36,282 nucleotides of DNA. Origin: Fidelibacterota bacterium (GTDB lineage Bacteria; Fidelibacterota; Marinisomatia; SCGC-AAA003-L08; JACNLC01). Each line of letters opens with the position of its first letter. Positions within the stretch are counted from its first letter, which is position 1. A model generated the notes under the pieces. It searched no databases, had not been told where the DNA came from, and was given only the letters and a program-made list of their open reading frames with translations. The position numbers and the translations under genes were made by a program. Below, piece after piece: positions 1 through 29,830 of this stretch. The stretch lies in contig JACNLC010000027.1 in assembly GCA_014381725.1 (NCBI GenBank), positions 1 to 36,282 on the forward strand, read 5' to 3'.

Positions 1-1767
1 TTTTTATTGGGTGCTTATGATATTTTGGTAGAATGGCATTTAAACTATTTCAAAAGCCAAGTAGATAAACTTTTTAAAAATGGAAAGACACTAAACCAAA
101 TCAATAAAAAATACTTAAACGAAGTAAAATGTCATTACGACGATAATGAAGTGAATGATTTTCAAAATTCTTTGCACCTAACCAGCAAATTGAAAAAACA
201 AATATTAAACAATAATCTATTTGGTGTGGATATTGATAGTAACGCCGTTGAAATTACCAAATTCAGTTTAAATATGAAGGCACTTGAAAATACTACACAT
301 GATGAGTTATATGAAGATTATGATTTATTTCACCAAACCCTTTTACCTGAATTGGGGAATAATATCAAATGTGGGAATTCTCTCGTCGGCTCGGATTATT
401 TTGATGGAAAAATTCTTTTTGATATGGATGAACGAAAAAAAGTAAATGCATTTGATTGGGAAGTGGAATTTTCTGAAATATTTAAAGAAGGTGGATTTGA
501 TTGTGTAATTGGAAATCCGCCGTATGTGAAAGCTCGAGACTACAACAAAGATAAAGATTTTTGTAGAAATTATTTAAATAAATCATCAAAATACCAAACA
601 CTATACCTTATGTGGGATTTATACATTCCATTTGTTGAAAAAGGACTAAACATTCTAAACACAAATGGGTTTTTCGGATACATTATACCAGATACATTGG
701 AGAAATCTGAATATTCAAAATTGATAAAAAAATTCATTCTGAAAAACTATTTTGTTACCCAAATTGACTTTTTTCCTGAATCTTATATTTTTCATTCTGA
801 AAAGAAAATTGTAGGGATAAAAAATATAGTTTTATTTGTAAAAAAATCTAGAGGTAAGAAAACACGAAAAATCATTCATGCAATTAATTACACAGAAATT
901 CAAAAGGAAAATATAGTTCAGTACGATGAAAATATATTTTCAACTTATAATTTGGAAATAGATCTAAATAATGTAGAAACATTAACTCTTTCAGATATTT
1001 GTTTAGTGAGTTATGGATTAAGACTAAACAGCGATAAGGATGATAAGAATCCAAAATTTAAAAAAGTTGATTTATTATCTGATAAAAAAAATGAGATAAA
1101 CTGGAAACCTTTTACTGAAGGAAAATATCTGTCAAGATACAATATCAATAAATATAAATTTCTTGAATTGGATTCTGATAGATGTCCTAAAAGATTGGTT
1201 AGACCTACTTTTAAAGAATTATATGAATCTAATAAATTACTTTTAGGTCGACAAAAAAGGGTATGTGTCTTTGATGAAAAGAATACCATTGTTGATAATA
1301 CAATTATGGTTTGTTCATTGCACAAATCTTTTGAAGGATTAGAAAATTCAAACTTAAATAAATATTACAATAATCTTAATGCGAACAGAGAATATCTAGT
1401 TCAACAATCAAAGAATCACTCTCTAAAATATTTACTGGGTATTCTAAATTCTACTATCACAAAATATTATTTAATGATTATTACTAAAGGTGGAATTGAT
1501 GCTTATCCTGACGATTGGAAAAATGTAATTATACCATTTTTAGATATTGACAATAAAAAAGACAAAGCCCACCACGACCAAATGGTTGTATTTGTTAATA
1601 CAATGTTGTCGTTAAATAAAGAGTTGCAAAAAGTAAAAACCGAACACGAAAAGGAACTAATACAACGACAAATAAATGCCACCGATAATAAGATAGATAA
1701 ATTGGTGTATAAACTCTATGATTTAACACCAGAAGAAATTGATATTATAGAAGAAAGTGTAAAATAA
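1..1767 (+). CDS. Eco57I-type DNA methyltransferase / type IIG restriction-modification enzyme, 5'-truncated
   Basis: This is the C-terminal part of an adenine-specific DNA methyltransferase of the Eco57I/type IIG class. The frame is already open at base 1 (F-L-L-G-A-Y...), which matches the stretch just after the SAM-binding motif I of this family, so the real start lies outside the window; the TTG at base 7 is only the first start-like codon. A FGVDIDSNAVEI segment near base 220 fits the SAM-proximal region. The catalytic motif IV appears as IGNPPYV, with NPPY at bases 514-525. The remaining ~400 residues fit a TaqI-like target-recognition region and end in a charged helix. No nuclease motif can be judged because the N-terminus is missing. 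The next gene starts 2 bases after its stop. Family assignment is firm; the split between methylase-only and bifunctional enzyme is open. Confidence 0.85.
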   Translation, partial: FLLGAYDILVEWHLNYFKSQVDKLFKNGKTLNQINKKYLNEVKCHYDDNEVNDFQNSLHLTSKLKKQILNNNLFGVDIDSNAVEITKFSLNMKALENTTHDELYEDYDLFHQTLLPELGNNIKCGNSLVGSDYFDGKILFDMDERKKVNAFDWEVEFSEIFKEGGFDCVIGNPPYVKARDYNKDKDFCRNYLNKSSKYQTLYLMWDLYIPFVEKGLNILNTNGFFGYIIPDTLEKSEYSKLIKKFILKNYFVTQIDFFPESYIFHSEKKIVGIKNIVLFVKKSRGKKTRKIIHAINYTEIQKENIVQYDENIFSTYNLEIDLNNVETLTLSDICLVSYGLRLNSDKDDKNPKFKKVDLLSDKKNEINWKPFTEGKYLSRYNINKYKFLELDSDRCPKRLVRPTFKELYESNKLLLGRQKRVCVFDEKNTIVDNTIMVCSLHKSFEGLENSNLNKYYNNLNANREYLVQQSKNHSLKYLLGILNSTITKYYLMIITKGGIDAYPDDWKNVIIPFLDIDNKKDKAHHDQMVVFVNTMLSLNKELQKVKTEHEKELIQRQINATDNKIDKLVYKLYDLTPEEIDIIEESVK

Positions 1768-1769
1768 TT

Positions 1770-3038
1770 ATGTCCAATAAAAACACAACAATAATCGAAT
1801 GCCCGGAATGTGGAAAAGAGATTGATATTCATGATGGTTTAACGCATCAATTAGAAAAACAATTTACCGAAAAATTTGAAGCAGAACGGAAAGCTGAAAA
1901 AGATAGGATTAGTTCCTTGGAAAAGAAATTGTCTGATGAAAAAGATATTTTAGACAAACAAAAGGAAGACATAAAAGCATCTATTGAATCCGGCATCAAA
2001 AAGGAAATGAAATCAGAGCGGGAAAAAGTAGAAGCGGAGGTAAAAAAGAGTCTCGCAAAGGAAAACAGCGACCAATTTTCCATGATGGAAAAAGAATTAA
2101 AAAAGAAATCCGAACAAGTAAAGGATCTCAATAAATCCAAAGCAGAGATTGAGAAACTAAAAAGAGAAAAAGATGAATTAAAATCTGAAGCAGAAGCGGA
2201 AGCACAAAAAGAATTAACGAAAGTTCTGATTGAAGAAAAAAAGAAGATTCAAAAGGTTGAAGAAGATCGAAATGAGATGAAAGTGAATGAATTGATTATG
2301 CAACTGGAAGACCAAAAAAAGCTCACGGAAGAGATGAAGAAAAAACAAGAGCAAGGGTCCATGAAATTGCAAGGAGAAGTTCAGGAAGTGTTAATCGAAA
2401 AATGGCTTGTTGCTCAATTCCCATTGGATACAATTGAAGAAATAAAAGCGGGTGCAAAAGGTGCAGATTGTTTACAAATTGTAAATACACATTCTCGCCA
2501 TAATTGTGGTATGATTTATTATGAGAGTAAAAGGACAAAAACGTTTCAGCCGTCATGGATAGAAAAATTCAAAGCCGATATGAGAAACAAAGGGGCTGGC
2601 ATTGGGGTTTTAGTCACAGAATCAATGCCAACAGGTATGGACAGAGCTGGACAAATGAATGGTGTTTGGGTTTGTAACTTCGAAGAATTTAAAGCCCTAT
2701 CTAAAGTATTAAGAGAATCGGTTATTCAAGTGAGTAATGCATTGGTATCTCAGGAGAATAAAGGTGGAAAAATGGAAATGTTATACACCTTTTTATCCGG
2801 GAATGAGTTCCGTATGCAAATTGAAGCCATCGTTGAAGGATTCTCCCAAATGAAAAATGATCTTGAAAGTGAAAAACGATCCATGCAGCGTATTTGGAAA
2901 CAGCGTGATAAACAAATTGAAAAAGTAATCCATAATACGGTAGATATGTATGGCTCCATTAAAGGTATTGCCGGGAATGCCATTCAACCGGTAAAACAAT
3001 TGGAATTGGGTGGTGGATCGGCAGAATTGGAAGAATGA
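1770..3038 (+). CDS. DUF2130-family coiled-coil protein with PD-(D/E)XK-like core
   Basis: A 422-residue protein matching the DUF2130 family. It opens with a small zinc-knuckle-like CPEC motif (Cys11 and Cys14). Residues about 25-205 are almost continuous Lys/Glu-rich heptad sequence, a long coiled coil. A globular domain follows at about 205-320, where Asp233 (GADC) and Glu252-x-Lys254 (YYESKRT) are spaced like the D...ExK core of PD-(D/E)XK nucleases; a second coiled coil lies near 350-390. The start is 2 bases after the methyltransferase stop and the end overlaps the next gene by an ATGA, so the three genes are probably co-translated. The family has no settled function that I know of; a nuclease role next to a DNA methyltransferase is inference. 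Confidence 0.8.
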   Translation: MSNKNTTIIECPECGKEIDIHDGLTHQLEKQFTEKFEAERKAEKDRISSLEKKLSDEKDILDKQKEDIKASIESGIKKEMKSEREKVEAEVKKSLAKENSDQFSMMEKELKKKSEQVKDLNKSKAEIEKLKREKDELKSEAEAEAQKELTKVLIEEKKKIQKVEEDRNEMKVNELIMQLEDQKKLTEEMKKKQEQGSMKLQGEVQEVLIEKWLVAQFPLDTIEEIKAGAKGADCLQIVNTHSRHNCGMIYYESKRTKTFQPSWIEKFKADMRNKGAGIGVLVTESMPTGMDRAGQMNGVWVCNFEEFKALSKVLRESVIQVSNALVSQENKGGKMEMLYTFLSGNEFRMQIEAIVEGFSQMKNDLESEKRSMQRIWKQRDKQIEKVIHNTVDMYGSIKGIAGNAIQPVKQLELGGGSAELEE

Positions 3039-4999
3039 AAACATTAACCAAATCAAGATTTAGCGTTGCTTTAGAATGTCCTACAAAATTACGTTATACA
3101 GGCAAAAAGGAATATGCTAGTAATAAACAGGATAATGACTTTCTCCAAGCGTTGGCGGAAGGCGGATTTCAAGTAGGTGAATTAGCAAAACAATATTATC
3201 CAGATGGTATTTCTGTAGATGAATTAGACTATGATAAAGCGTTAGCAAAGACGAACAAATTACTTGAGAAAGAAAATGTAACCATATTTGAAGCAGCCAT
3301 TCTTTATGATGATCGATTCTTTATTCGTGTTGATATTTTAAATAAAATCGGAAATAAAGTTGAATTAATCGAAGTCAAGGCGAAATCGTATCATTCTGAC
3401 AATCCAAATTTCTATTATAAACGGGAAAAAATCAGTGATTATATCCGACCCGGTTGGCGACCTTACTTATTTGATGTGGCTTTTCAAACATGGGTTATGG
3501 AACATGCATTCCCGGAGTGGCAGGTTAAGCCTTATCTCATGATGGCGGATAAAAATAAAACCACCACCGTCAATAATTTAAATCAGCATTTTCGTATTAG
3601 AAGAAACAAAGACGATCATAGACGAAAAGAATGTTATACTTTCCCTGAAGGGATTGATGTGCATGTAGGAGATAAAATCCTAGGCAAAATAAAAGTACGA
3701 AATTTGGTGAATCAAATTTGGGCAGGAAACGCTATTCCCCCAGAGAAGAGAACAGCCGAGGATGTAAAAGACTTTGAATCGCGTATTTATGAATACGTTG
3801 ATTATTATAATAAGACTGGTGATGTTTATCTACAGGGAGTCGGAAAACATTGTAAAGAGTGTGAATTTCATAAAGATAAAAAACATCCTGATAAAAAAAG
3901 CGGTTTTGACGAATGTTGGAAACGTGCAAAAGGGGCAAACTTTGATGAGAGTGAACCCCATATTTTTGATATTTGGTTTAAGCCAAAAATAAAAGAATTA
4001 TTACAGGATAATATCTACTATCAAAAGGATGTGGATATAGAAAAATATTTGATGAAGCGATTGAAGTCAGGTCAGTTAGAGTATACCGGAACAAGAAGCA
4101 CAAGGCAAGCGCTTCAGATTGAGAAAGTTCAGAATAACGATATTCGAGAAGATATTAAGGAAGAATTATTTGAAAGTATGGATGATTGGGTTTTTCCACT
4201 ACATTTTATCGATTTTGAGACCAATATGATGGCCATCCCTTTCAATAAAGGAAGAAAGCCTTACGAACAAATTGCATTTCAGTTTTCGAGTCATACCTAT
4301 TATGAAGATGGAACCATTACGCATGATGAATGGGTCAATACTGAACAGGGGAAATTTCCAAACTATGAATTTGTGAGAGCCTTAAAATATGGTTTAGATA
4401 AAGATGAAGGAAGCATTTTTCGTTTTGCTGATCATGAAAATACGGTATTGAATCAAGTGCGAGATCAAATGATTGACGATGGAGATGAAAGTCTTCAAGA
4501 ACTCATTGATTGGATTCCAACGATTGCTGTCGTGGATAAAAATGAGCCACCACCAGACAGGAATATGGTGGATATGCTGAAATTGGTTCAGAAACATTAT
4601 TATCAAAAAGATATGGGTGGATCCAACTCCATAAAACAAGTATTACCTACTGTATTAACCCATAGTGCATTTCTCAAAGATAAATATAGTTCCCCGTTGG
4701 AATTTGGAACAAACCTAGTGGGTAAAACGATTTGGCAGAAAGAAGATGGAATTGTGTTGGACCCTTATAAACTGTTGCCACCTATTTATGAAGATATTGA
4801 TCAATCGCAGGATTCTTACCTAGATGAAAAAGGTAATATCAGAGATGGCGGTGCTGCCTTAATGGCTTATTCTTATTTACAGTTTTCAGATTTAGATAAT
4901 GAAAGACGTAATGCCATTACGAAGGGTTTACTACGCTATTGCGAATTGGATACTTTGGCTATGGTAATGATTTATGAACATTGGAATTCTTTGAAATAA
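3035..4999 (+). CDS. DUF2779-family protein: Cas4-like nuclease fused to RNase H-like exonuclease domain
   Basis: A 654-residue protein matching DUF2779. The N-terminal ~300 residues resemble a Cas4/AddB-type PD-(D/E)XK nuclease: Asp100 (RVDIL) and Glu113-Val-Lys115 (IEVKAKS) supply the active-site pattern. Four cysteines, Cys15 plus Cys273, Cys276 and Cys294, are arranged like the Fe-S cluster ligands of Cas4. The C-terminal half contains Asp393-x-Glu395 (IDFET) and Asp639 (CELDT), the pattern of a DEDD/RNase H-like 3'-5' exonuclease. Translation starts inside the preceding stop (ATGA), indicating coupling. The combination suggests DNA-end processing, either in defence or repair. Domain assignments come from motif reading only; activity is inferred. 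Confidence 0.8.
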   Translation: MKTLTKSRFSVALECPTKLRYTGKKEYASNKQDNDFLQALAEGGFQVGELAKQYYPDGISVDELDYDKALAKTNKLLEKENVTIFEAAILYDDRFFIRVDILNKIGNKVELIEVKAKSYHSDNPNFYYKREKISDYIRPGWRPYLFDVAFQTWVMEHAFPEWQVKPYLMMADKNKTTTVNNLNQHFRIRRNKDDHRRKECYTFPEGIDVHVGDKILGKIKVRNLVNQIWAGNAIPPEKRTAEDVKDFESRIYEYVDYYNKTGDVYLQGVGKHCKECEFHKDKKHPDKKSGFDECWKRAKGANFDESEPHIFDIWFKPKIKELLQDNIYYQKDVDIEKYLMKRLKSGQLEYTGTRSTRQALQIEKVQNNDIREDIKEELFESMDDWVFPLHFIDFETNMMAIPFNKGRKPYEQIAFQFSSHTYYEDGTITHDEWVNTEQGKFPNYEFVRALKYGLDKDEGSIFRFADHENTVLNQVRDQMIDDGDESLQELIDWIPTIAVVDKNEPPPDRNMVDMLKLVQKHYYQKDMGGSNSIKQVLPTVLTHSAFLKDKYSSPLEFGTNLVGKTIWQKEDGIVLDPYKLLPPIYEDIDQSQDSYLDEKGNIRDGGAALMAYSYLQFSDLDNERRNAITKGLLRYCELDTLAMVMIYEHWNSLK

Positions 5000-7343: not shown

Positions 7344-7727
7344 TGTTCCCTCCTGTTTTTATGCTACGAAACACTCAAAGTATTAGATTTCCGAAAACTC
7401 TGTTCGTTCTTTCAACTCATTAGATGTCATATCCAGTTTTGTAGTTGCTTATGAGTTTTTTTGTTTAATTTCTAAAACTCATCATAGTTTCTTTGTTTAA
7501 ATTAATACTATTATTTTTGTGATTCCAAATATTTTGTGAACTTTGCATTGGTGTTTTTCTATTTCTACTTATTCTATCAGTACCACTTCCACAATATCGG
7601 TAAAATATAAATTAGATATATATATCTTGAATTCCAATATAAGTATTTGCTAAATTACAATGTTCGATAATAAGTAATTATTGATAATAGGTAATGATTA
7701 GTAAATAACAAATAGGAGAAGTATTCT
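7344..7727. promoter_or_regulatory. Divergent intergenic region with palindromes
   Basis: No gene is visible in this 384-base AT-rich stretch between two divergent genes, so promoters for both should lie here. It contains a 9-bp inverted repeat ATGAGTTTT/AAAACTCAT (7451-7459 and 7474-7482), a perfect 14-bp palindrome AGATATATATATCT (7614-7627), and a short direct repeat GATAATA[AG]GTAAT at 7666 and 7683. A weak TTGAAT-N18-TAAATT pair at 7627-7656 could be a promoter for the cytochrome gene. A ribosome-binding AGGAG precedes 7728. Function of the repeats is inferred from position only. Confidence 0.4.
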
Positions 7728-9263
7728 ATGAAATTGTTAACAAAAATAATGATGTGTGTGATGGTGGTTGGATTAGTATGGTCTCAAGACTATGTTGGTT
7801 CATCAGCTTGCATGTATTGTCATAGTGGTCAATATGGTGATTGGGCAGATTCAGGTCACCCATTTAAAGCCAATATCAAATCTGAGGGTTGGAATATTCT
7901 TGGACCAGGCGCAGATGGTGGACCTCAATATCCTGATTTTGTGTCTAACTACCAAGAAAACTGGATGAGCACATTAGGAACATCTTGGGACACTGATATA
8001 ACAGGAGTTGTAGGTGGTTTCGGATGGAAAGCTCGTTTCTTAGATAATAGTGGTAAAATTGTAGGAACATTAAATAGTGAAATCAATCCGGGTGCAGGAC
8101 AAAACCAATTTAATTTCTTTGATGGTGAAGAATGGGGTTGGGTTGATTATCATCCGAGTGATGACAAAACTTACAATTATGGATGTTTCCGATGCCATAC
8201 AACTGGACCATCAGAAGAAGGAACTTGGTTAGATGGCGTAGATGGCTTAGGTCATTTTGCAGAAGACGGTGTCGGCTGTGAAGCTTGTCACGGACCTGGT
8301 AGCGACCATGTTGCCGGACCAAATTCAAGTAATATTGATCTAGTTTATGAATATAACATCACTGATACCACTGGCTTGGACTATGGTGGAGATATTGGTG
8401 TTGTTCCTCCAGACCCAAATGGCGATGATGTTAACTACCTTTGTGGTACCTGCCACAATCGTGGTTTTAATGCACCAATTGAAGCAAAGAGTGGTTATAT
8501 TAAGCACCACGAACCATGGGAGGAATTTATAACAACAGATCACTATGAACATGGCATGACCTGTACAGATTGTCACGATCCTCATAAACGAGTTATTTGG
8601 GGTGGTGATGGTATAACTGCTTCTTGTACAAATTGTCATACAGATCAGCAAGAAACTATTAATCACTTAGGTGATGCAACTTGTGTTGATTGCCATATGC
8701 CATATGCTGGTAAATCTGCAGTAGCACGAGGTGAAAGTGGATATAAAGCTGACATCCATTCTCATCTATTTACAGTAACTGTTGATGCTGAATCTATGTT
8801 TAACGAAGAAGGTAATTTAGTTCAAGATGATGAAAATAGAGAAGCTTCTCTTGACCTTGGGTTCACTTGTTTAGGTTGTCATAATAATGACTCGACCGAT
8901 GGCATTTTTGATAAAACAATTGAAGAAGCATTGGCATCAATTATTTCTACGAATGGAATTCACGGTTCATTAAATATAGAGCATGCAAATATTACTCCTT
9001 CTGGATATTCACTACAACAAAACTATCCGAATCCATTTAACCCAGAAACCACAATTGAATATACTCTTAAGGAATCAGGTTATGTGAAATTAGCTGTTTA
9101 TGATATTTTAGGGCAGAATGTGGTTGATTTAGTAGATGGTAATATGAAAGCCGGTTTCTATCAACAAGTATTAAATGCAGAAAATCTTGGAGCTGGAATA
9201 TATTTCTATAAACTAGAGACAAACAATTTCAGCGAAATGAAAAAGATGATTTTATTGAAATAA
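7728..9263 (+). CDS. Octahaem c-type cytochrome with type IX sorting domain
   Basis: A 511-residue secreted multihaem cytochrome. The signal peptide ends near SQ19. Eight CXXCH haem-binding motifs start at residues 28, 153, 184, 239, 279, 300, 319 and 381 (CMYCH, CFRCH, CEACH, CGTCH, CTDCH, CTNCH, CVDCH, CLGCH). The first, with YVGSSACMYCH...GHPFK around it, resembles cytochrome c554-type domains. A type IX C-terminal sorting domain starts near residue 427 (NYPNPFNPETTIEY) and ends MILLK. Haem attachment in the periplasm followed by type IX export would place the cytochrome on the cell surface, where it could carry electrons to or from external partners; substrate and direction are unknown. 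The gene has its own terminator and is followed by a MarR-type regulator. Haem count and sorting domain are direct readings; the electron-transfer role is inference. Confidence 0.9.
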   Translation: MKLLTKIMMCVMVVGLVWSQDYVGSSACMYCHSGQYGDWADSGHPFKANIKSEGWNILGPGADGGPQYPDFVSNYQENWMSTLGTSWDTDITGVVGGFGWKARFLDNSGKIVGTLNSEINPGAGQNQFNFFDGEEWGWVDYHPSDDKTYNYGCFRCHTTGPSEEGTWLDGVDGLGHFAEDGVGCEACHGPGSDHVAGPNSSNIDLVYEYNITDTTGLDYGGDIGVVPPDPNGDDVNYLCGTCHNRGFNAPIEAKSGYIKHHEPWEEFITTDHYEHGMTCTDCHDPHKRVIWGGDGITASCTNCHTDQQETINHLGDATCVDCHMPYAGKSAVARGESGYKADIHSHLFTVTVDAESMFNEEGNLVQDDENREASLDLGFTCLGCHNNDSTDGIFDKTIEEALASIISTNGIHGSLNIEHANITPSGYSLQQNYPNPFNPETTIEYTLKESGYVKLAVYDILGQNVVDLVDGNMKAGFYQQVLNAENLGAGIYFYKLETNNFSEMKKMILLK

Positions 9264-9286: not shown

Positions 9287-9319
9287 AAAGAGGGAGAGTC
9301 AAATCTCCCTCTTTTTTTG
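9287..9319 (+). terminator. Rho-independent terminator after the cytochrome gene
   Basis: A perfect 11-bp stem (AAAGAGGGAGA pairing with TCTCCCTCTTT) around a 6-base loop is followed by a run of T, 24 bases past the cytochrome stop. This is the clearest intrinsic terminator in the window and separates the cytochrome transcript from the MarR gene. Confidence 0.9.
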
Positions 9320-9392: not shown

Positions 9393-9887
9393 ATGAAATC
9401 GAAACATATTGATAATATTTCAAAACTCTCAGATTTGGTGTTCAATCTCACAATGAAGTGTGAAGAAAAAGAACAAATAATTGCACAACAAAATAATCTT
9501 ACTCGGACAGAGTTTAGATGTCTAAGGATTATTTTTAAAGCACTAACTGTAGAAAAGTTAAACATAAATAATAAAGATATTTCTGATATTATGAAATTAA
9601 CTCCGAGCCGTCTGACAAGAATAATCGATGGTTTAGTAAACAAAAATTATCTCTTAAGAGAAATCGACAAAAGTGATCGTCGCAATATCCGTTTTTCTCT
9701 AACTAACTACGGATTGGAAAAATCTACTTTAGCAAATCAAGAATTTTTGGATATTCATGAACAAATATTAAACGAAGTGGATCCTGAAATGCATTCAATA
9801 TTAGTTAGTGGAATGGAACATTTTTTTGCAGCTGTAAAAAAAGTAATTGATAATCAAATTGCACAACTGTCCAAAACCAACCCTTGA
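9393..9887 (+). CDS. MarR-family transcriptional regulator
   Basis: A 164-residue winged-helix regulator. The recognition-helix region (ISDIMKLTPSRLTRIIDGLV, about residues 64-83) and the wing (DKSDRRNIRFSLTNYG, about 92-107) match the MarR family, where a D-x-R-[DN] wing is typical. The N- and C-terminal helices would form the dimer interface. The gene stands alone between the cytochrome terminator and the large C25/pgs operon, 184 bases upstream of the latter. MarR proteins usually control neighbouring genes, so the operon, the cytochrome or itself are the candidate targets. Ligand unknown. Confidence 0.85.
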   Translation: MKSKHIDNISKLSDLVFNLTMKCEEKEQIIAQQNNLTRTEFRCLRIIFKALTVEKLNINNKDISDIMKLTPSRLTRIIDGLVNKNYLLREIDKSDRRNIRFSLTNYGLEKSTLANQEFLDIHEQILNEVDPEMHSILVSGMEHFFAAVKKVIDNQIAQLSKTNP

Positions 9888-10071: not shown

Positions 10072-13000
10072 ATGAAAAAGTTAGGTGTTATTTTTGGGTT
10101 CACAATGTTAATGTTGGTCAGCGTTCAAGCGAATTCTAGTAAATTCAGTTATGAAGGTGAAAATGGTCTAAAATCAACTTTGAGATTTGAAGTTGGGGAA
10201 ACTCAATTGAAAACTGTAGAAAATTATCAACAAATTGTTAATAATGAATTAGGAGGAATTGGTGAGGAGGGGATGCCGAATATTCCATTATATTCAACAC
10301 TGTATCAGATTGATCCAAGCAAAACTTATGAAGTAGAATATTCTGTAATACAATCTCATATTTTACAAAATATCTGGATTGAACCATATCAGTATGAAAA
10401 AGCTGATTCAGAGATGATAGTAAATGAGGATTTTTATTCTTCAAGTTCAGTATATCCAACAGAAAATTTGTTAGTATCAGATCCTGTTGTAATGAGAGAT
10501 TTATATGCGTTGAATATCAGTGTAGTACCTTATAAATTCTATCCTAAAACTCAAGAGTTAGAAGTTTTTGACGAAATTGAGATTTATATAACAGAAACAG
10601 GTCAATCAGCAAATACTGAATTTTCAACAAAACCTAGATCAAGAGTTTTTGAAAATTTATATTCTGAAATGACTGTTAATTTTACACCTCGTGATTCTGA
10701 GGAATTTCAACAACCAGCAGTTCTTTACATTTGTGATGGGAATACAGATGACAATTTGTATTTCCAGCAGTTAGAACAATGGAGACACAAACGAGGATAT
10801 ATTGTTTACAAAGCATCAACAGATGATATTGGAACTTCCGCTTCATCAATAAAAAATTATATACAGCAAGCGTATGATTCATTTACTCCTACACCGGAAT
10901 TTGTAGCATTAGTTGGTGATGTAGATGGACCAAATAATTTTGATATACCAACTTATTTCGAATCTTGGTCTGGTTATAGTGGCGAAGGCGACCATCCATA
11001 TTCTCAATTGGATGGCAACGATTTACTTCCTGAAGTTATTTTAGGTCGAATATCTGTCAGAAGTAATACAGATTTAGCTATAGTTGTAAATAAAATCCTT
11101 CAGTATGAAAAAGCAACAGATTTACAGCAAAATATAAGTTATTACGAAAAAGCTGCTTTAATTGGAGACCCATCTGATTCTGGAGTTTCGACTATTATTA
11201 CAAACGAATACCTTGCAGAGGTGATGTCAGCAAATGGTATGACAGATATCCGTGAAAAATATAGTGGTGGAAGTTGGTCATCTTGGATGCAAAATCAATT
11301 GGATGAAGGTGTTTTATATTTTAACTATCGTGGTTATTGGGGTACTAGCGGGTTTGATTCAGGTGATATTAATTCTGCCAACAATGGATTTAAATTACCT
11401 TTTGCTACAGTTTTAACCTGTGGGACAGGTGGATTTTCTGAAACAACCTGTTTATCCGAATCATTTCTAAAAGCTGGTACTTCTCCAACAAGTCCAAAAG
11501 GTGCAATTGCATCTGTAGGTACTGCAACAATAGGTACCCATACTGCGTTTAACAATATTATTGATATGGGTATTTATGATGGTATTTTCACCAAGAATGT
11601 AGAAACAGCCGGCGAAGCTCTTGTTTATGGTAAATTAGCTATTTATAACACTTACCCAACTAACCCCAATAACAAAGTGAGTATTTTTACACATTGGAAT
11701 AATTTAATGGGAGATCCAACTACTCATTTATGGACGGATACGCCATTACAATTAACTGTAGATCATCAAGAAAGTATTGACTTTGGTACAAATTATTTAG
11801 AAGTTTTTGTACACGATGTCAATGGTCATTCAATCGACGATGCAGTAGTTACATTGTTAAAAGGTAATGATGAAATATTTATCAGTAATACTACAGGAAA
11901 TTCTGGATATGCCTATTTTGATCTAGATTACTATTCTGAGGGTGAAATATCTATAACAGTTACTAAAAGAAATTGCCAACCTTACGAAGGAACGGTTGAT
12001 ATTGTTTCTCCTGCACAAAATGTGAATTTGGATAATCAATCAGCAATTTTGGTTGTAGATGGTAACGATGGAATGTTGAATCCTGGAGAAACAGTTGATT
12101 TATCAATTGCACTAACAAATTATGGAACCAGCAATTTAAGCGGAGTTACAGCAACTCTAAGTTCATTGTCGTCGGACATCGTTACTATAACCGATCCAAC
12201 TGTAAGTTATGGTTCATTTGTTTCTGGTCAAACAAAAACAGAAACTGGATTTACATTTATTCTTAGTAGTTCTGCAACTTCTTATGATGATTTGTATTTT
12301 ATGTTAAGCATAGAAGATAATGCATCCAACACTTGGTATTCTGTAATTCCTATTATAGTTTATGGACCTTATTTATCAGTTATTGATAATGGAAATGTTG
12401 CACCCGGCCAAACTGCAGATGTATATATTTCACTTGAAAATTTAGGATTAACTTCGATTGATGGGATATCTGCTGAACTCAGTTATGATGGTGATTTAAT
12501 TGATGTTATCGAATCTACTATTAGTTGGGGCGATATAACTCCCGGTAATACTGTAGTTTCACAAAATCCAGTTACTATAGCTGTTTCTGGAGATATTGTG
12601 AAAGGGACTATAATTTCACTGCCATTGCATATTCAAAGTACTTTTGGTTATGATAGAATTGAGTATTACAATATACAAATAGGTGAAGTTACACCTTACG
12701 ATCCGATGGGCCCAGATATGTCTGGATATTACATTTACGATTCTGGTGATATTGGATATGATTTAGCTCCGGTTTATAATTGGATAGAAATTAATCCAAG
12801 TAACGGTGGATCAGGTACAAGTTTAAATTTATCTGATAGTGGAGATGGTAATTTTAGTAATGCGATAAGTTATGTTAATCTACCATTCAATTTTAGATAT
12901 TATGAAGTTGAGTACGATGAAATTACTGTGTGTACAAATGGTTGGATTGCCTTTGGTCATTCGGAACTAGAATCGTTCAGAAATTATCCAATTCCTGGAG

Positions 13001-15504
13001 CAGGTGGCCCGGTTGCTATGGTTGCAGCATTTTGGGATGATTTGAAAACAACAGGTGGTGGAAATGTATATGTTGATTCTGATAATGAAAGAGTCATTGT
13101 TGAATGGTCAAATATGAAAACTCAGAATAATAACCATACAGAAACATTTCAATTGATTTTATATAATAATCCAATTCCACCGTATGGAAATGGCGAAATT
13201 AAACTGCAGTATAAAACTTATAACAATACATCATCAGGCAACTACTCCGGTTATACACCGATACACGGAGGATATTGCACAATTGGTACTGAAAATCATT
13301 TTAGTAATGATGGTTTACAATATACATTCAATAATGAATATGCTCGGGCTGCAATGGTTCTAGATGATGAAACTGCTCTATTTATTACAACTCAAGCTCC
13401 AATAACAATGCCAATTCCTGCTTTGTCATATACTCCTGGGTTGCTTGATTTTCAAATTTTTCAAGGTCAATCAGCTACTGAAGAAATTGTAATATCAAAT
13501 AATGGTGAGAGTGGCTCAATGTTAACTTATGATGTTGATATAGAATATCCAGAATCTACATCTCCATTTGATAATACAGGTGGTGGTCCTGATAATGCAG
13601 GTTATTTTTGGAGTGATTCTGATATAAGTTCAGAAATTGAATATAATTGGATTGATATTTCAACTAATGGATCTCAATTAGAATTTTCAACAAATGACCA
13701 AGCTCCTCCAGCAATTGATTTAGGTTTTGATTTTCCTTTTTACGGACAATCTTATAACCAGTGTATTGTAAATCCTAACGGTTGGGTCGGTTTTGGTAGT
13801 GATAATACATCGTGGAATAATGCAGGAATTCCATCTGTTTCTGCTCCTCAACCAGCTATATTTGCATTTTGGGATGATTTGAGTCCTACAAACAATGGTG
13901 CTTCTGGTTGTTACGATGATGGTGGGAATGTATATGTGCGTTCAGAAGGTGATAAATTTATTGTATGGTTTGATGATGTTTATCATTGTTCAGAGACTTA
14001 TTCTGGGTTGTATGATTTTGAAGTTGTTATTTATGATAACGGAAATATTGATATCAATTATAGAGAAATGCAAGGTACAGTAACAAGTAGCACAATTGGA
14101 ATTCAAAACGCAGTAGGTAGTGATGGTTTACAAGTTGTTTACAATAATAACTTCGTTCAAGATCAGTTATCATTGCAATTTAGAAAACCAAGTACTGCTA
14201 ATTGGTTAGATTTAACTTCTAGCAACGATCTTTCTGGAGAGCTAGAATATGGTGAATCGACTAGCATTACTGTAGAAGCAAATTCTGCTGAATTACTTGA
14301 AGGATTATATAGTGCATCAATTAATATTCAAACAAATGCCCAACCATTGGCAGAAATCCCAGTTTCAATGACTGTATCTTATGCTGCGGTTACTATAGAT
14401 TTACCTTTCCAAAATGGTTGGAATTGGTTTTCAGTAAATCTTGAAAATAATGATATGGGTTTAGAAAATGTGCTATCAACACTCGGTGAAAGCGCTAATC
14501 TAATTAAAAGCCAAACTGGATTTGCAACTTATTACGAAGGTTTTGGTTGGTACGGTATGGATTTAATTGAAAATGAAAAAATGTATATGATTAATATGCT
14601 TGCCAGTGAAAATTTAGTTTTCCAGGGTATTCCTGTTGATTTTGTTAATACACCAATCAGCTTATCTGATGGTTGGAACTGGATTGGTTATTTACCTCAG
14701 TTACCAAATACCCTAAACGAAGCACTTTATAGTATTGGAGATTTAGGTAGTTTAATTAAAAACCAAACTGGATTTGCAACTTATTACGAAGGTTTTGGTT
14801 GGTACGGTATGGATTCTATGGATCCAGGACTTGGATATATGTTGCAAATGTCTGATTCAGCTCAATTGATTTATGGTGCTCCAGATGGATTAACCAAAAT
14901 TAAAAATAGTGAAGTTAATGAACTACACTGGAGTGTTGACTATCGTGCATTTGAATATAATATGACAATTACTGCCCAATTAGATAATATATCAGAGGGA
15001 GATGTTTTATCTGCGTTTGTTGGCGATGAAGTTAGAGGAGTTACAGAAGCAACATATTTCCCATTATCAGATAGCTATACTTTTAATCTAATGGTTTATG
15101 GTGAAACTGATGAAGAGCTCACTTTTAAAGCATTCCAATCAGGAAGAGAAGTTGAAGTAAATGGTAAAGTTACATTTGAGATTAACGGTATTGTTGGTAA
15201 CGACTTTGAACCGATTTTACTGAAGACTAACAATCTACCAACTGAATTTGGATTATTACAAAATTATCCAAATCCGTTTAATCCTTCAACGGTTATAGGT
15301 TATCAGTTAAAAGTTAACAGTGATGTTAGAATAGATATTTTCAATATCAATGGGCAATTAGTTGAAGAATTAGTACAAGGTGAATTAGAAGCAGGATATC
15401 ATTCAGTAGTTTGGAATGCTGATAATTTTGCATCTGGTGTATATTTTGTTAAATTGCAAGCTGGTGCCTTTATACAAACGCACAAGCTAGTATTGATGAA
15501 ATAG
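10072..15504 (+). CDS. Giant gingipain-like (peptidase C25 family) multidomain secreted protein
   Basis: An 1810-residue protein: signal peptide (1-21), a gingipain-propeptide-like region (~25-190), a C25-type caspase-fold domain (~216-560), Ig/CARDB-like domains (~565-875), two related beta-sandwich domains (~877-1120 and ~1170-1377), two GWNW repeats of 84 residues (~1448-1603), a beta-sandwich module shared with the giant downstream protein (~1617-1718), and a type IX sorting domain (NYPNPFNPSTVIGY from residue 1731). In the C25 domain the nucleophile-position Cys450 is present (TCGTGGF), but the His expected in the gingipain NYxGHG motif reads NYRGYWG (Tyr422). Proteolytic activity is therefore doubtful or uses another His. 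An AGGAG site precedes the ATG. It heads the operon containing pgsBCW, 27 bases before pgsB. Family membership is firm, function is not. Confidence 0.85.
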   Translation: MKKLGVIFGFTMLMLVSVQANSSKFSYEGENGLKSTLRFEVGETQLKTVENYQQIVNNELGGIGEEGMPNIPLYSTLYQIDPSKTYEVEYSVIQSHILQNIWIEPYQYEKADSEMIVNEDFYSSSSVYPTENLLVSDPVVMRDLYALNISVVPYKFYPKTQELEVFDEIEIYITETGQSANTEFSTKPRSRVFENLYSEMTVNFTPRDSEEFQQPAVLYICDGNTDDNLYFQQLEQWRHKRGYIVYKASTDDIGTSASSIKNYIQQAYDSFTPTPEFVALVGDVDGPNNFDIPTYFESWSGYSGEGDHPYSQLDGNDLLPEVILGRISVRSNTDLAIVVNKILQYEKATDLQQNISYYEKAALIGDPSDSGVSTIITNEYLAEVMSANGMTDIREKYSGGSWSSWMQNQLDEGVLYFNYRGYWGTSGFDSGDINSANNGFKLPFATVLTCGTGGFSETTCLSESFLKAGTSPTSPKGAIASVGTATIGTHTAFNNIIDMGIYDGIFTKNVETAGEALVYGKLAIYNTYPTNPNNKVSIFTHWNNLMGDPTTHLWTDTPLQLTVDHQESIDFGTNYLEVFVHDVNGHSIDDAVVTLLKGNDEIFISNTTGNSGYAYFDLDYYSEGEISITVTKRNCQPYEGTVDIVSPAQNVNLDNQSAILVVDGNDGMLNPGETVDLSIALTNYGTSNLSGVTATLSSLSSDIVTITDPTVSYGSFVSGQTKTETGFTFILSSSATSYDDLYFMLSIEDNASNTWYSVIPIIVYGPYLSVIDNGNVAPGQTADVYISLENLGLTSIDGISAELSYDGDLIDVIESTISWGDITPGNTVVSQNPVTIAVSGDIVKGTIISLPLHIQSTFGYDRIEYYNIQIGEVTPYDPMGPDMSGYYIYDSGDIGYDLAPVYNWIEINPSNGGSGTSLNLSDSGDGNFSNAISYVNLPFNFRYYEVEYDEITVCTNGWIAFGHSELESFRNYPIPGAGGPVAMVAAFWDDLKTTGGGNVYVDSDNERVIVEWSNMKTQNNNHTETFQLILYNNPIPPYGNGEIKLQYKTYNNTSSGNYSGYTPIHGGYCTIGTENHFSNDGLQYTFNNEYARAAMVLDDETALFITTQAPITMPIPALSYTPGLLDFQIFQGQSATEEIVISNNGESGSMLTYDVDIEYPESTSPFDNTGGGPDNAGYFWSDSDISSEIEYNWIDISTNGSQLEFSTNDQAPPAIDLGFDFPFYGQSYNQCIVNPNGWVGFGSDNTSWNNAGIPSVSAPQPAIFAFWDDLSPTNNGASGCYDDGGNVYVRSEGDKFIVWFDDVYHCSETYSGLYDFEVVIYDNGNIDINYREMQGTVTSSTIGIQNAVGSDGLQVVYNNNFVQDQLSLQFRKPSTANWLDLTSSNDLSGELEYGESTSITVEANSAELLEGLYSASINIQTNAQPLAEIPVSMTVSYAAVTIDLPFQNGWNWFSVNLENNDMGLENVLSTLGESANLIKSQTGFATYYEGFGWYGMDLIENEKMYMINMLASENLVFQGIPVDFVNTPISLSDGWNWIGYLPQLPNTLNEALYSIGDLGSLIKNQTGFATYYEGFGWYGMDSMDPGLGYMLQMSDSAQLIYGAPDGLTKIKNSEVNELHWSVDYRAFEYNMTITAQLDNISEGDVLSAFVGDEVRGVTEATYFPLSDSYTFNLMVYGETDEELTFKAFQSGREVEVNGKVTFEINGIVGNDFEPILLKTNNLPTEFGLLQNYPNPFNPSTVIGYQLKVNSDVRIDIFNINGQLVEELVQGELEAGYHSVVWNADNFASGVYFVKLQAGAFIQTHKLVLMK
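14501..14563 (+). repeat. Internal direct repeat, copy 1 (with 14753-14815)
   Basis: A 63-bp block recurs 252 bases (84 codons) downstream at 14753-14815 with a single mismatch. It encodes the QTGFATYYEGFGWYGMD core of the two GWNW-type repeats of the C25 protein. The flanking parts of the repeat units are much more diverged, so this patch looks recently copied or homogenised. Confidence 0.85.
14753..14815 (+). repeat. Internal direct repeat, copy 2
   Basis: Second copy of the 63-bp block at 14501-14563, in the same reading frame of the same gene. Confidence 0.85.
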
Positions 15505-15531: not shown

Positions 15532-16692
15532 GTGGTTATTGGAACACTTATAATTTTATTGTTAATAATGGTTTTGTTTGGTATTTGGGAAGTGTACCAA
15601 CATCATCGTTCTATATCCAATATTCCGATTAGAATTCATATAAACGGGGCACGCGGTAAATCTAGTGTAACTCGATTAATTTCTGCTGGTCTGAGAGCAG
15701 GTGGATTTAGAACTATTGGTAAAACTACAGGTTCTGCACCTCGAGTTATAGATATAGATGGCAAAGATCGCATTATTCATCGGCTTAGGTCCGCATCAAT
15801 AGGTGAGCAGATAAAATCTATAAGAAGTTTTTCAAAAAAGAAAATTGATGCATTAGTAATAGAATGTATGGCTGTCTTACCTCAATATCAGTGGATAGCA
15901 GAGCACAAAATGGTAAAATCCACAATTAGTGTAATTACAAATGTTCGGCCTGACCATATTGATGAGATGGGACCAACAATGGAAGATATTGCTAATTCTT
16001 TAGGAAATACAATTCCATTCAATGGAACATTGATTACTGCTGAACGGGATATGCTTCACACACTTTCAAAAGTTGCGGAAAGCAGAGATACCGATGTTCA
16101 AATAGCTTCACCAGAAATTGTTACTGAAGAATTTATGTACAAGTTTCCCTATGTAGAGCACCGAGAGAATGTTGCTCTTGCATTAAAAGTTTGCAGATTA
16201 CTCAAAATAGATGACAAAACAGCTCTAAAAGGGATGTTGAATGCTCAACCTGATCCTGGTGCATTGTTCATTCAAGAATTGAAATTTACAGGTTCTGAGA
16301 ATTATTTTGTTAACGCTTTTGCAGCAAATGACCCACAGTCAACTCACACTATTTGGGAATCTGTATCGAAAAGATTACCTAATTATCCAGCCTGCGTATT
16401 TTTGAATACACGAGATGATCGTCGTTCACGAACCGAACAATTATTAGAAATGACATTCCAAAAAATAAAACCTTCTAAAATTATTATTCGTGGAGATAAT
16501 ATTCCAGATATTAACAATTATAAAAATGGTTTTGATTTTGATTTGAGCATTTTCCCAAATTCTGCTGATACAGAACAAATAATTAGTGATTTTGAGTCAA
16601 TGAATAATCACATTATTTTTGGTATTGGAAATATGGTTGGATGGGGTGAACAACTAGTAAAAGAACTAAGGGAATATAAAAATAATGGTTGA
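15532..16692 (+). CDS. pgsB: PgsB/CapB, poly-gamma-glutamate synthase ligase subunit
   Basis: A 386-residue Mur-ligase-like amide ligase. In characterised systems PgsB uses ATP to add glutamate through gamma-peptide links, acting at the cytoplasmic face with PgsC. The sequence has an N-terminal membrane anchor (residues ~2-20) and a P-loop NGARGKSSVTRL (residues 38-49), the family's hallmark. Further family-like segments are ALVIECMAV, SVITNVRPDHIDEMG and FLNTRDDRRSRTEQ. Length is typical. The start is a GTG preceded by AAAGGA. It overlaps pgsC by 8 bases. It directly follows the C25 gene, and no PgsA/CapA homologue is seen in the window. Confidence 0.93.
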   Translation: MVIGTLIILLLIMVLFGIWEVYQHHRSISNIPIRIHINGARGKSSVTRLISAGLRAGGFRTIGKTTGSAPRVIDIDGKDRIIHRLRSASIGEQIKSIRSFSKKKIDALVIECMAVLPQYQWIAEHKMVKSTISVITNVRPDHIDEMGPTMEDIANSLGNTIPFNGTLITAERDMLHTLSKVAESRDTDVQIASPEIVTEEFMYKFPYVEHRENVALALKVCRLLKIDDKTALKGMLNAQPDPGALFIQELKFTGSENYFVNAFAANDPQSTHTIWESVSKRLPNYPACVFLNTRDDRRSRTEQLLEMTFQKIKPSKIIIRGDNIPDINNYKNGFDFDLSIFPNSADTEQIISDFESMNNHIIFGIGNMVGWGEQLVKELREYKNNG

Positions 16693-17131
16693 AATTGCAA
16701 TTGGTTTAGGAATATTCCTGAGTTTGGTTTTCACAGAAACCTTAGGGGTTACCGCCGGTGGATTAATTGTTCCGGGTTATATAGCATTGAATCTAAACGA
16801 CCCTTTGCGTGTGATTAGCACATTTGCAATTAGTTTATTAGTGTTTATGGTGGTAAAAGGTTTCTCGGATAAACTGTTGATTTACGGAAAACGTCGTCTG
16901 GTATTTTCTTTATTATTGGGCTTTATATTTGGTTACTTATCAAGACAACATTTATCTTTCCCACAGGATGATTTGAATTTATCATCAATTGGATATATTA
17001 TTCCAGGTTTGATTGCAAGTTGGATGGACCGTCAAGGTGTTGTAAGGACGATTAGTGTAATTGTTATTACAGCAAGCATCGTCCAGTTAATGTTAATGAT
17101 TTTTGAAAAAGGGTTGATTCATAATGTTTAG
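16685..17131 (+). CDS. pgsC: PgsC/CapC, poly-gamma-glutamate synthase membrane subunit
   Basis: A 148-residue membrane protein with about five hydrophobic segments. The N-terminus (LSLVFTETLGVTAGGLIVPG, then YIAL) is the conserved start of PgsC/CapC, which forms the minimal polymerase with PgsB. Length matches the family. It overlaps pgsB by 8 bases and the next gene by 8 bases, so the three are almost certainly translated together. Confidence 0.93.
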   Translation: MVEIAIGLGIFLSLVFTETLGVTAGGLIVPGYIALNLNDPLRVISTFAISLLVFMVVKGFSDKLLIYGKRRLVFSLLLGFIFGYLSRQHLSFPQDDLNLSSIGYIIPGLIASWMDRQGVVRTISVIVITASIVQLMLMIFEKGLIHNV

Positions 17132-24342: not shown

Positions 24343-26667
24343 ATGAGATATAGATTCACATCTATGATATTATTTCTTGTTGGAGCAACCTTTTTGTTTA
24401 CTCAGGAAGAACTTCACGAAAGGTATCATACTTACGAAGAAATCAGAGAACAGCTTGAATTATGGGATGAACAATTTGGGAACAATACTGAACCATCTCC
24501 AGCATTTCCAGGAAGTGGAATTATTTATCAATTAGAAGAAATTGGAATATCATCAACTGACGGACTTCCTTTTTGGGGTGTTAAATTATCATATAACGCC
24601 GATATAAAAGAAGATGAAGCTAGAGTATTATTTTTAGGGCAATGCCACGCAGAAGAAATCTATGGAATTGAAATTGCAATGGAGATAATAAAAATGGTTT
24701 TGGAACCAACTCCGCCGATCACAAACCTAAAATATATACTTCAAAATGCGGAAATTTGGGTGGTGCCTACACATAATCCGGAAGGATTGCGTGTTGTTCA
24801 CGGGTATAATGACGACGATATTTGGGTTCAGGATGTTGCGTATAGAAAAAACCGTAGAGATGTAGATTTTAATGGTATTTTCAATTTTGTTGAAGGAGCT
24901 GGAAATGATTCTGATGGCGTTGATTTAAATCGAAATTATGACTTTAATTGGTTTAGAGGTGACGAGCTTTGGGAGGGCGACCCATCTCCATATCAAGCAC
25001 ATTATGATTATTACAAAGGTGAATATCCATTTTCTGAATTAGAGCTACAAGGAATAAGAGATTTTGTAACTGACAAGAATTTTTTGCTATCTATTGCTTA
25101 TCATAGTTCTCGTTCTGGCAATGTATCAGAACAAGTCATATATTCTTGGGAGTGGGAAGGCAATAAATATCCCCCAGATTTCCCTGTAATTAGTACAATG
25201 GCTGAAAATATTGCAAATTTAATCCCTACTGAGACTGGGATTGATTTTCAGTATTATATTCCTGTTGCAGGTTCATCTCGTAAAGGAAGTGCGCACGATT
25301 GGTTTTATGCGAAAGATGGTTGTATTCAATATCTAATTGAAACTGGGACTGAAAATTTGCAATCCGATGATGTAGATATAATTGATGGCACAATTGAACG
25401 AAATTTGAGAGGTGCGTATTATTTAATGAACCGTGCAGTTGGTTATGATTCAGGAGAATATGGTGCTGAAAAGTATCAAATAACTGGGAATGTATTTGAT
25501 TCTCAAACGATGGAGCCAATTCAAGATGCTGATGTAAGAATTGTTGAAATGGACGGGAAAATGTTGGAAAATCGAACAACAGACGAATTTGGTAGATATA
25601 GACGGTTACTGGTTCCTAGTACTTTCAATATTGAAGTTGAAAAAAGAGGATACGAAAAACAGAGTCTTCAGTTTACTCCAAGTAGTTCTGTGATTTTACA
25701 AGAAGATTTTTACTTAGAACCGTTGAATGAATTCCATTTAACTCTGAATTTAAATTCACCCTCCTCTGTAGAAATTAGCATTTCTGATGAGTATGGAGAA
25801 ACAAGTTACACAAATATCGAATCTTCACTTCAATTATTATTACCTAAGAATTCATATTACATCACAGTATTTGGTGAAAACTTATTATCGCAATTCATTG
25901 ATGTTGAGTTGTTTTCTAACTTGACTTTGGATATCTTTATTGAATATTCCGAAATTGTGTTTGATGAAGGTTTTAATAATCTAGATAATTGGGAGATCGT
26001 GTCAGGTAGTTGGTTAGTTGAAGATGGCATGTTACAATCCCAAAACGAAAGTTTGTACCCAAATAATAGTATTTTAATTCGGTCAAACATCATCAATCTT
26101 ATTGATGTAGATGAAATGGAATTAAAACTCAATTTCCAATATGAAATGGAATGGGAAACTGATTCGTTGTTTATCAGATTTATTAGTGAACAAGATACTT
26201 CTGAAATATTCTGGGATGACCAAAATTGGACTTTACATGAAGAACATCATCCAATTTCAATTTCTGGAGAATCAATGTTCATAGAAATAGAAATTAGACC
26301 GGACAATACCGTTGGGTATAGAGGATTGAAAACTGATCAATTATCTATTTATAAAGGTAATGGGAATATTGTTAGTAATGAAATTAATAGCTTACCAGTC
26401 CACTATAATTTGTTTCAAAATTATCCAAACCCATTCAATCCAAGAACAGTTATTGGTTACTCAGTAGAGACAAGCGGTTATTTGTCTCTACAAATTTATA
26501 ATTTACACGGACAACTTGTTGATGAATTAGTAAGCAGTGGCAGTAGGCAGGAACCGGGTTATCATCAAGTTATTTGGAATGCAGAAAATCATCCAAGTGG
26601 AATTTACTTTGCAAAATTAGTAGCAGGAGATTTTACTTCAACAAAAAAATTATTATTACTAAAATAG
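24343..26667 (+). CDS. Secreted M14-family zinc carboxypeptidase with type IX sorting domain
   Basis: A 774-residue protein: signal peptide (1-20), M14 metallocarboxypeptidase domain (~55-370), carboxypeptidase regulatory-like beta domain (~375-460), a jelly-roll-like region around residues 545-675, and a sorting domain (NYPNPFNPRTVIGY to KLLLLK). The zinc ligands read His102-x-x-Glu105 (QCHAEEIYG) and His254 (IAYHSS); the catalytic acid is Glu333 (LIETG), and GVDLNRNYDFNW is a typical substrate-pocket segment. All key residues are therefore present and the enzyme should be active. Within a poly-gamma-glutamate operon a substrate with C-terminal or gamma-linked glutamate is possible, but ordinary protein trimming at the surface is equally compatible. 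AAAGGA precedes the ATG. Confidence 0.88.
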   Translation: MRYRFTSMILFLVGATFLFTQEELHERYHTYEEIREQLELWDEQFGNNTEPSPAFPGSGIIYQLEEIGISSTDGLPFWGVKLSYNADIKEDEARVLFLGQCHAEEIYGIEIAMEIIKMVLEPTPPITNLKYILQNAEIWVVPTHNPEGLRVVHGYNDDDIWVQDVAYRKNRRDVDFNGIFNFVEGAGNDSDGVDLNRNYDFNWFRGDELWEGDPSPYQAHYDYYKGEYPFSELELQGIRDFVTDKNFLLSIAYHSSRSGNVSEQVIYSWEWEGNKYPPDFPVISTMAENIANLIPTETGIDFQYYIPVAGSSRKGSAHDWFYAKDGCIQYLIETGTENLQSDDVDIIDGTIERNLRGAYYLMNRAVGYDSGEYGAEKYQITGNVFDSQTMEPIQDADVRIVEMDGKMLENRTTDEFGRYRRLLVPSTFNIEVEKRGYEKQSLQFTPSSSVILQEDFYLEPLNEFHLTLNLNSPSSVEISISDEYGETSYTNIESSLQLLLPKNSYYITVFGENLLSQFIDVELFSNLTLDIFIEYSEIVFDEGFNNLDNWEIVSGSWLVEDGMLQSQNESLYPNNSILIRSNIINLIDVDEMELKLNFQYEMEWETDSLFIRFISEQDTSEIFWDDQNWTLHEEHHPISISGESMFIEIEIRPDNTVGYRGLKTDQLSIYKGNGNIVSNEINSLPVHYNLFQNYPNPFNPRTVIGYSVETSGYLSLQIYNLHGQLVDELVSSGSRQEPGYHQVIWNAENHPSGIYFAKLVAGDFTSTKKLLLLK

Positions 26668-29640: not shown

Positions 29641-29830
29641 GAAGTATATTGTAATTATTATTACTTTATGTTTGTATTCATATTTATTAGAGGAGATTTA
29701 TAATTGTTTGTGCAAAATATGTGATTAGTGTCACATTGTTTTAGGGGTTTTTACCCTTATTTTTGTACAATATATTGTGAATAATTTTTTATTTAACAAA
29801 CAAAAACGAAGGATAAAAGAGGAGATAATC

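Follow-up and report, generated by a model that had tools for sequence, protein, structure and literature searches.

The cytochrome gene and its product

The window, the whole stretch of 36,282 nucleotides that was analysed, carries at 7728..9263 on the forward strand a gene for an octahaem c-type cytochrome of 511 aa with a type A sorting domain of the type IX secretion system (T9SS). The frame opens with ATG and an RBS-like AGGAGAAG (7714..7721, forward strand), read directly from the sequence, precedes it. Three parts can be recognised in the product, all encoded on the forward strand: (i) a predicted Sec signal peptide (aa 1-19; 7728..7784), assigned by eye from this sequence and those of its relatives; (ii) an octahaem module, here termed module A (aa 22-412; 7791..8963), with eight CXXCH motifs and eight further invariant histidines; (iii) the type A sorting domain (9006..9260, profile match 9024-9251). 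The signal peptide is predicted, again by eye, to be cut before QDYVGS, a site that reads A^Q.YVGS in relatives. Directly 3' of the stop codon lies an intrinsic terminator-like hairpin of 11 pairs followed by a T run (9287..9314, forward strand), so the cytochrome gene probably makes up a unit by itself that ends here. It stands alone, outside any conduit cluster; its neighbours encode a sorting-domain protein, a MarR-family regulator (downstream, 9393..9887, forward strand) and a C25 peptidase. The MarR gene was considered as a conserved partner and rejected, as phmmer found no homologue of it in the 18 loci searched.

A first-pass annotation of this DNA had reported eight CXXCH motifs and a complete sorting domain in one frame, and both are confirmed. 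The motifs lie at aa 28, 153, 184, 239, 279, 300, 319 and 381 and contain 16 of the 17 cysteines. The remaining one, Cys10, is in the signal peptide and is preceded by IMM; inspection by eye found no lipobox in the protein. Composition shuffling of the protein (10,000 rounds) yielded 0.02 CXXCH motifs on average and never more than 2, which rules out a chance origin of the eight. The sorting domain (aa 433-508) scores 43.9 bits against Pfam Por_Secre_tail (cut-off 27) and 48.0 bits against TIGR04183 (cut-off 23). Structure prediction gave a confident beta-sandwich for the C-terminal part (pLDDT 78-94 in 10-residue blocks), for which the first Foldseek match is the DUF3244 protein 4g5a and the second is 8glk_D, a solved T9SS substrate domain (E 1.2e-3). 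Confidence was low for the haem part (pLDDT mostly <50).

The octahaem module family and its predicted export

With the haem part alone as query, module A was found in 11 of 171 genomes of the class (E<=1e-20) and in 17 of 245 genomes of the phylum (E<=1e-15). A search of genome contigs for related loci gave 24, among which only L031 matched over the full length and the other 23 in the tail region; L031, from a Candidatus Neomarinimicrobiota MAG, has 62% identity and is the same protein as that of genome G076. This relative is the basis for assigning the window to the Neomarinimicrobiota. The module is used in several architectures. One module with a tail occurs in the window's own genome (G000), G076 and G093, two modules with a tail in G057 (905 aa) and G096 (921 aa), and module A followed by a second octahaem module, B, and a tail in G066 and G102. 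The longest form is A-A-B with a tail, found in G001 (1558 aa) and G002 (1572 aa) with 23 CXXCH motifs and one CX3CH. In G093, A and B are encoded by separate, adjacent genes that both have a tail. Contig ends cut the G003 copy behind A and B, before any tail, and the G069 copy within module A. Haem totals across the class relatives are thus 8, 16 or 24. The two modules of G057 are nearly identical, and their near-identity in the tree points to a recent duplication.

Every class carrier whose C-terminus is intact, nine in all, has the sorting domain at that end. Further CXXCH-rich proteins with such a tail (574-911 aa, nine motifs) are present in G093, G096 and G026, so the sorting domain is joined to more than one kind of multihaem cytochrome. 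The 574-603-aa family, searched with the nine-haem T9SS cytochrome of G093, is rare, being found in 2 of 171 class genomes.

Orthologues in another class (L134-L140; seven copies from six genomes of one genus, 47-50% identity) share the module and the same pattern of eight plus eight histidines. They differ from the window protein at both ends: they start with a lipobox-like MFMWSC followed by acidic residues, and they end directly behind the module with no sorting domain. They are predicted lipoproteins, and the acidic stretch after the cysteine is one we take to resemble the lipoprotein surface-export signals of Bacteroidota. These copies form one clade (100/98) in a tree whose root and long G102/G069 branch are uncertain. 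As read from the sequences, the predicted anchor is swapped between the classes, a tail in one and a lipobox-like signal in the other. A response regulator and a histidine kinase are encoded beside module A in both classes (L134-L140, L063, L067), and the regulators have 33-38% identity between the classes.

The genome that contains the window (2.18 Mb, 98% complete) encodes the core of a type IX system. SprA, scored together with its neighbours, reaches 631 bits and PorV 232 bits, each over its cut-off. The best PorU-like match reaches about 311-313 bits, under the 420-bit cut-off; scores are alike in four genomes of the same family, and of 20 genomes searched 5 exceed this cut-off. A cytochrome c assembly protein matches PF01578 over cut-off. 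In a scan of the whole genome TIGR04183 matches 61 places, among which the window cytochrome ranks second. The protein resembles known type A cargo (TIGR04183 / PF18962; 8glk) in its signal peptide, its C-terminal beta-sandwich sorting domain and the T9SS genes of its host, and departs from it in that the cargo part is a multihaem cytochrome. Known T9SS cargo consists mostly of hydrolases and adhesins. The system transports proteins that have already folded in the periplasm, a property that would fit a cargo loaded with haem.

The signal peptide, the complete sorting domain, the T9SS core genes and the nine tailed relatives together support the type IX export predicted at first pass, and the cytochrome is probably exported by this route. 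It could instead be a periplasmic cytochrome whose sorting domain is non-functional or a mere folding domain, a reading to which the sub-threshold PorU-like match lends something. We regard it as very unlikely, since the tail is kept in every complete class relative, the genome has 61 such domains and the T9SS core, and the orthologue in the other class carries a lipobox-like signal where the tail is missing.

Haem ligation and solved relatives

Module A was aligned in 22 copies, 15 from the class and seven from the other class, 21 of them complete. The eight motif histidines are kept in all 21 complete copies, that of G069 being cut before the last motif; one haem motif reads CX3CH in some copies. 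Exactly eight further histidines are invariant (aa 44, 194, 260, 261, 286, 313, 346 and 412 of the window protein), seven of them in 22 of 22 copies and the last in 21 of 21. A ninth, at aa 142, is missing from two of the 22 copies. Eight extra histidines for eight haems is the number needed by electron carriers in which every haem is bis-His ligated, and such wiring of module A appears likely from the alignment. The adjacent residues His 260 and His 261 may not both be ligands.

By profile comparison the nearest solved relatives are 6i5b (E 1.5e-10) and 6qvm (E 1.4e-8), labelled "uncharacterized protein" and "multiheme cytochrome cf" in the PDB. We take these to be OcwA and OmhA, two cytochromes that metal-reducing bacteria place outside the cell. 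They are the best solved sequence relatives of module A and are multihaem proteins too, but the match is partial and local; OcwA and OmhA have haem numbers other than eight and come from Gram-positive hosts. The MtrC/MtrF domain PF22113 also matches the window protein (38.4 bits, cut-off 30), over aa 297-399 only. Besides this match, the protein would share with MtrC/OmcA and the Geobacter Pcc outer cytochromes the place of an outer multihaem partner to a barrel and a periplasmic multihaem protein. Those outer cytochromes are lipoproteins that reach the surface by type II secretion, whereas the window protein has no lipoprotein signal and carries a type IX sorting domain instead.

A different function for an exported protein of this kind would be catalysis: a surface multihaem enzyme, reducing nitrite, tetrathionate, another soluble oxyanion or a metal ion, and not a carrier. 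Among the solved relatives of weaker score are 4rkm (which we take to be MccA, a sulfite reductase), 6r2q and the cytochrome c-552 chain 3ubr. If one of the paired histidines 260 and 261 is not a ligand, one haem could be left without a His ligand. In G096 the T9SS cytochrome gene lies upstream of 4- and 5-haem genes and of a molybdopterin oxidoreductase/FeS/NrfD gene set, a context that would also suit an enzyme. On the other hand, the CXXCK motif of an NrfA-type catalytic haem occurs in none of the 22 aligned copies, the invariant extra histidines number exactly eight for eight haems, and tandem repetition of the module to 16 or 24 haems suits a wire better. An enzyme thus seems unlikely.

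Candidate conduit genes, proposed role and other content of the window

Elsewhere in the same genome there are genes that could form an outer-membrane conduit. The end of contig C36 encodes a protein with nine CXXCH motifs and one CX3CH, then a rhodanese; the start of C28 encodes a rhodanese, a barrel of 389 aa, an 11-haem protein and a 6-haem lipoprotein. C54 encodes a c554-like 4-haem protein as well as 17-haem and 11-haem proteins, each with a cytochrome b part. The barrel is predicted to have 22 strands (mean pLDDT 85) and matches outer-membrane barrels with Z up to 20.5. Its first Foldseek rows are ushers and a porin; the VIA/Foldseek matches listed are general barrels, and MtrB is not among them. 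Neither this barrel nor its G066 counterpart, with which it has only 22% identity, matches a Pfam or NCBIfam family over cut-off. The two larger C54 proteins, with 17 and 11 CXXCH motifs and a formate-dehydrogenase-gamma-like cytochrome b part, are ones we would liken, by architecture alone, to CbcL-type inner-membrane cytochrome b/multihaem quinol oxidases. Their counterparts in G066 match PF01292. For each of the seven cluster proteins compared, the best match in G066 is the corresponding part of its cluster (22-61% identity).

The barrel family occurs in 29 of 171 class genomes. An outer-membrane barrel gene beside multihaem genes was seen at C28/C36, in G066 and at 20 further loci (these 20 and G066 were covered out of 28 barrel places outside the window's genome, seven being left out), and at all 20 further loci a 10- or 11-haem gene adjoins the barrel. 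Two of the clusters, L118 and L129, include very haem-rich proteins without a tail: one of 820 aa has 25 CXXCH motifs and one of 1047 aa has 23. The window's own genome likewise encodes two tail-less proteins with eight CXXCH motifs (L072:14009-15646 and L073:3315-5204), one of which matches PF13447. At L122 and L123, from G048 and G076, genomes of different families, the barrel clusters have the same gene order and sizes, possibly through transfer or a binning error.

Module A and the barrel tend to occur together: the barrel is present in 10 of 11 module carriers against 19 of 160 other genomes (Fisher p 4e-8, kinship ignored). That the module is always paired with a conduit is ruled out by G102, which has module A and no barrel match, and by the 19 of 29 barrel genomes that lack module A. 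The latter also indicate that the conduit does not need the module. Physical linkage is seen in some relatives. In G066 the T9SS cytochrome, with 16 haems, lies 172 bp behind the last cytochrome b gene of the cluster on the same strand. In G057 it sits directly upstream of an orthologue of the 11-haem cytochrome b protein of C54, of which only the start is present before the contig ends (126 aa compared, 51% identity). G093 has a different T9SS cytochrome, with nine haems and a c552-like match, in a row (L077:2357-8411) that reads 10-haem lipoprotein, T9SS cytochrome, barrel-like gene, 12-haem protein and 6-haem lipoprotein; the barrel-like gene weakly resembles the barrel at C28 (E 1.8e-4). 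No barrel cluster lies near module A in G001, G002, G076 or G093 within the stretches read.

We propose that Sec would carry the octahaem cytochrome to the periplasm, where its eight haems would be loaded. The type IX system would then move it across the outer membrane, with SprA as channel and PorV as shuttle, and the PorU-like sortase would remove the tail, after which the cytochrome would stay at the surface or be set free. Outside the cell it would serve as the outer electron carrier or as a terminal reductase, receiving electrons through the outer-membrane barrel and multihaem conduit, itself fed by inner-membrane multihaem/cytochrome b quinol oxidases. Genes for these components lie elsewhere in the genome, at the end of C36, at the start of C28 and on C54. 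We infer from sequence that the haems are loaded and that the protein is exported to the surface, and likewise its partner, its acceptor and the direction in which electrons flow.

On these data the most likely function is to carry electrons at the surface, or to act there as a terminal reductase, in connection with the barrel/multihaem cluster, and we consider the full proposal, type IX export included, reasonably probable. Several observations count against a conduit role: the window gene lies outside the cluster, G102 lacks a barrel, 19 of 29 barrel genomes lack the module, the barrels of G000 and G066 have 22% identity, and the haem part has no reliable model. The protein might alternatively serve at the surface in electron buffering, haem storage or redox sensing, with no through path to the inner membrane. 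A solitary gene with a MarR regulator next door would fit such a role, as would the two-component pair that adjoins module A in G057, in G096 and at each of the seven loci from the other class. The genome nevertheless has matching parts of a whole envelope path, seven of seven having the corresponding cluster part as their best G066 match, and we rate this reading the least probable of those considered and highly improbable in itself.

We retain the carrier or terminal reductase coupled to a conduit. The extracellular electron transfer suggested at first pass is supported as a probable role by the invariant histidines, the solved relatives and the linkage in some relatives; the isolation of the window gene speaks against it. 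The same annotation had presented type IX export as an alternative to conduits; the cytochrome is better read as the probable surface partner of one. More tentatively, and with slightly less than even confidence, we suggest that Neomarinimicrobiota may possess a surface electron-transfer arm in which one to three octahaem modules, delivered by the type IX system, sit on a lineage-specific conduit. In a sister lineage the arm would be a lipoprotein, so that the route to the surface would be exchangeable.

Surface multihaem cytochromes and sorting domains are each already known; their union as a conserved, modular, conduit-linked family is undescribed in the literature searched. Judged by titles and abstract openings, and outside subscription journals and preprints, none of the papers listed describes a T9SS-exported multihaem cytochrome, and neither PMC5317091 nor PMC5688066 contains the term type IX. 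The tailed 8-, 16- and 24-haem forms, some of them next to genes for electron passage through the envelope, suggest a route, apparently undescribed, for placing electron-transfer proteins at the surface. If the proposal is correct, the range of T9SS cargo, for which mainly enzymes and adhesins are known, extends to cytochromes carrying as many as 24 haems. This would add a further route of extracellular electron transfer and offer a concrete hypothesis for the respiration of Neomarinimicrobiota. The combination of a sorting domain with CXXCH repeats provides a rule for genomic searches, and the lipoprotein and T9SS orthologues offer a natural experiment on the delivery of such proteins to the surface.

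The window has other content. Three T9SS-tailed peptidases are encoded at 10072-15504, 24343-26667 and 26677-29577, two of family C25 (the gingipain family) and one M14 carboxypeptidase. The Mur-ligase-like and CapC-like genes at 15532-17131 resemble those that make poly-gamma-glutamate capsules, and further genes come after them. Eco57I-type methylase, DUF2130 and DUF2779 genes stand in a row at 7-4999, possibly a restriction or defence island. An open frame of more than 2168 aa with near-identical long internal repeats (29777-36280) runs off the end of the window.
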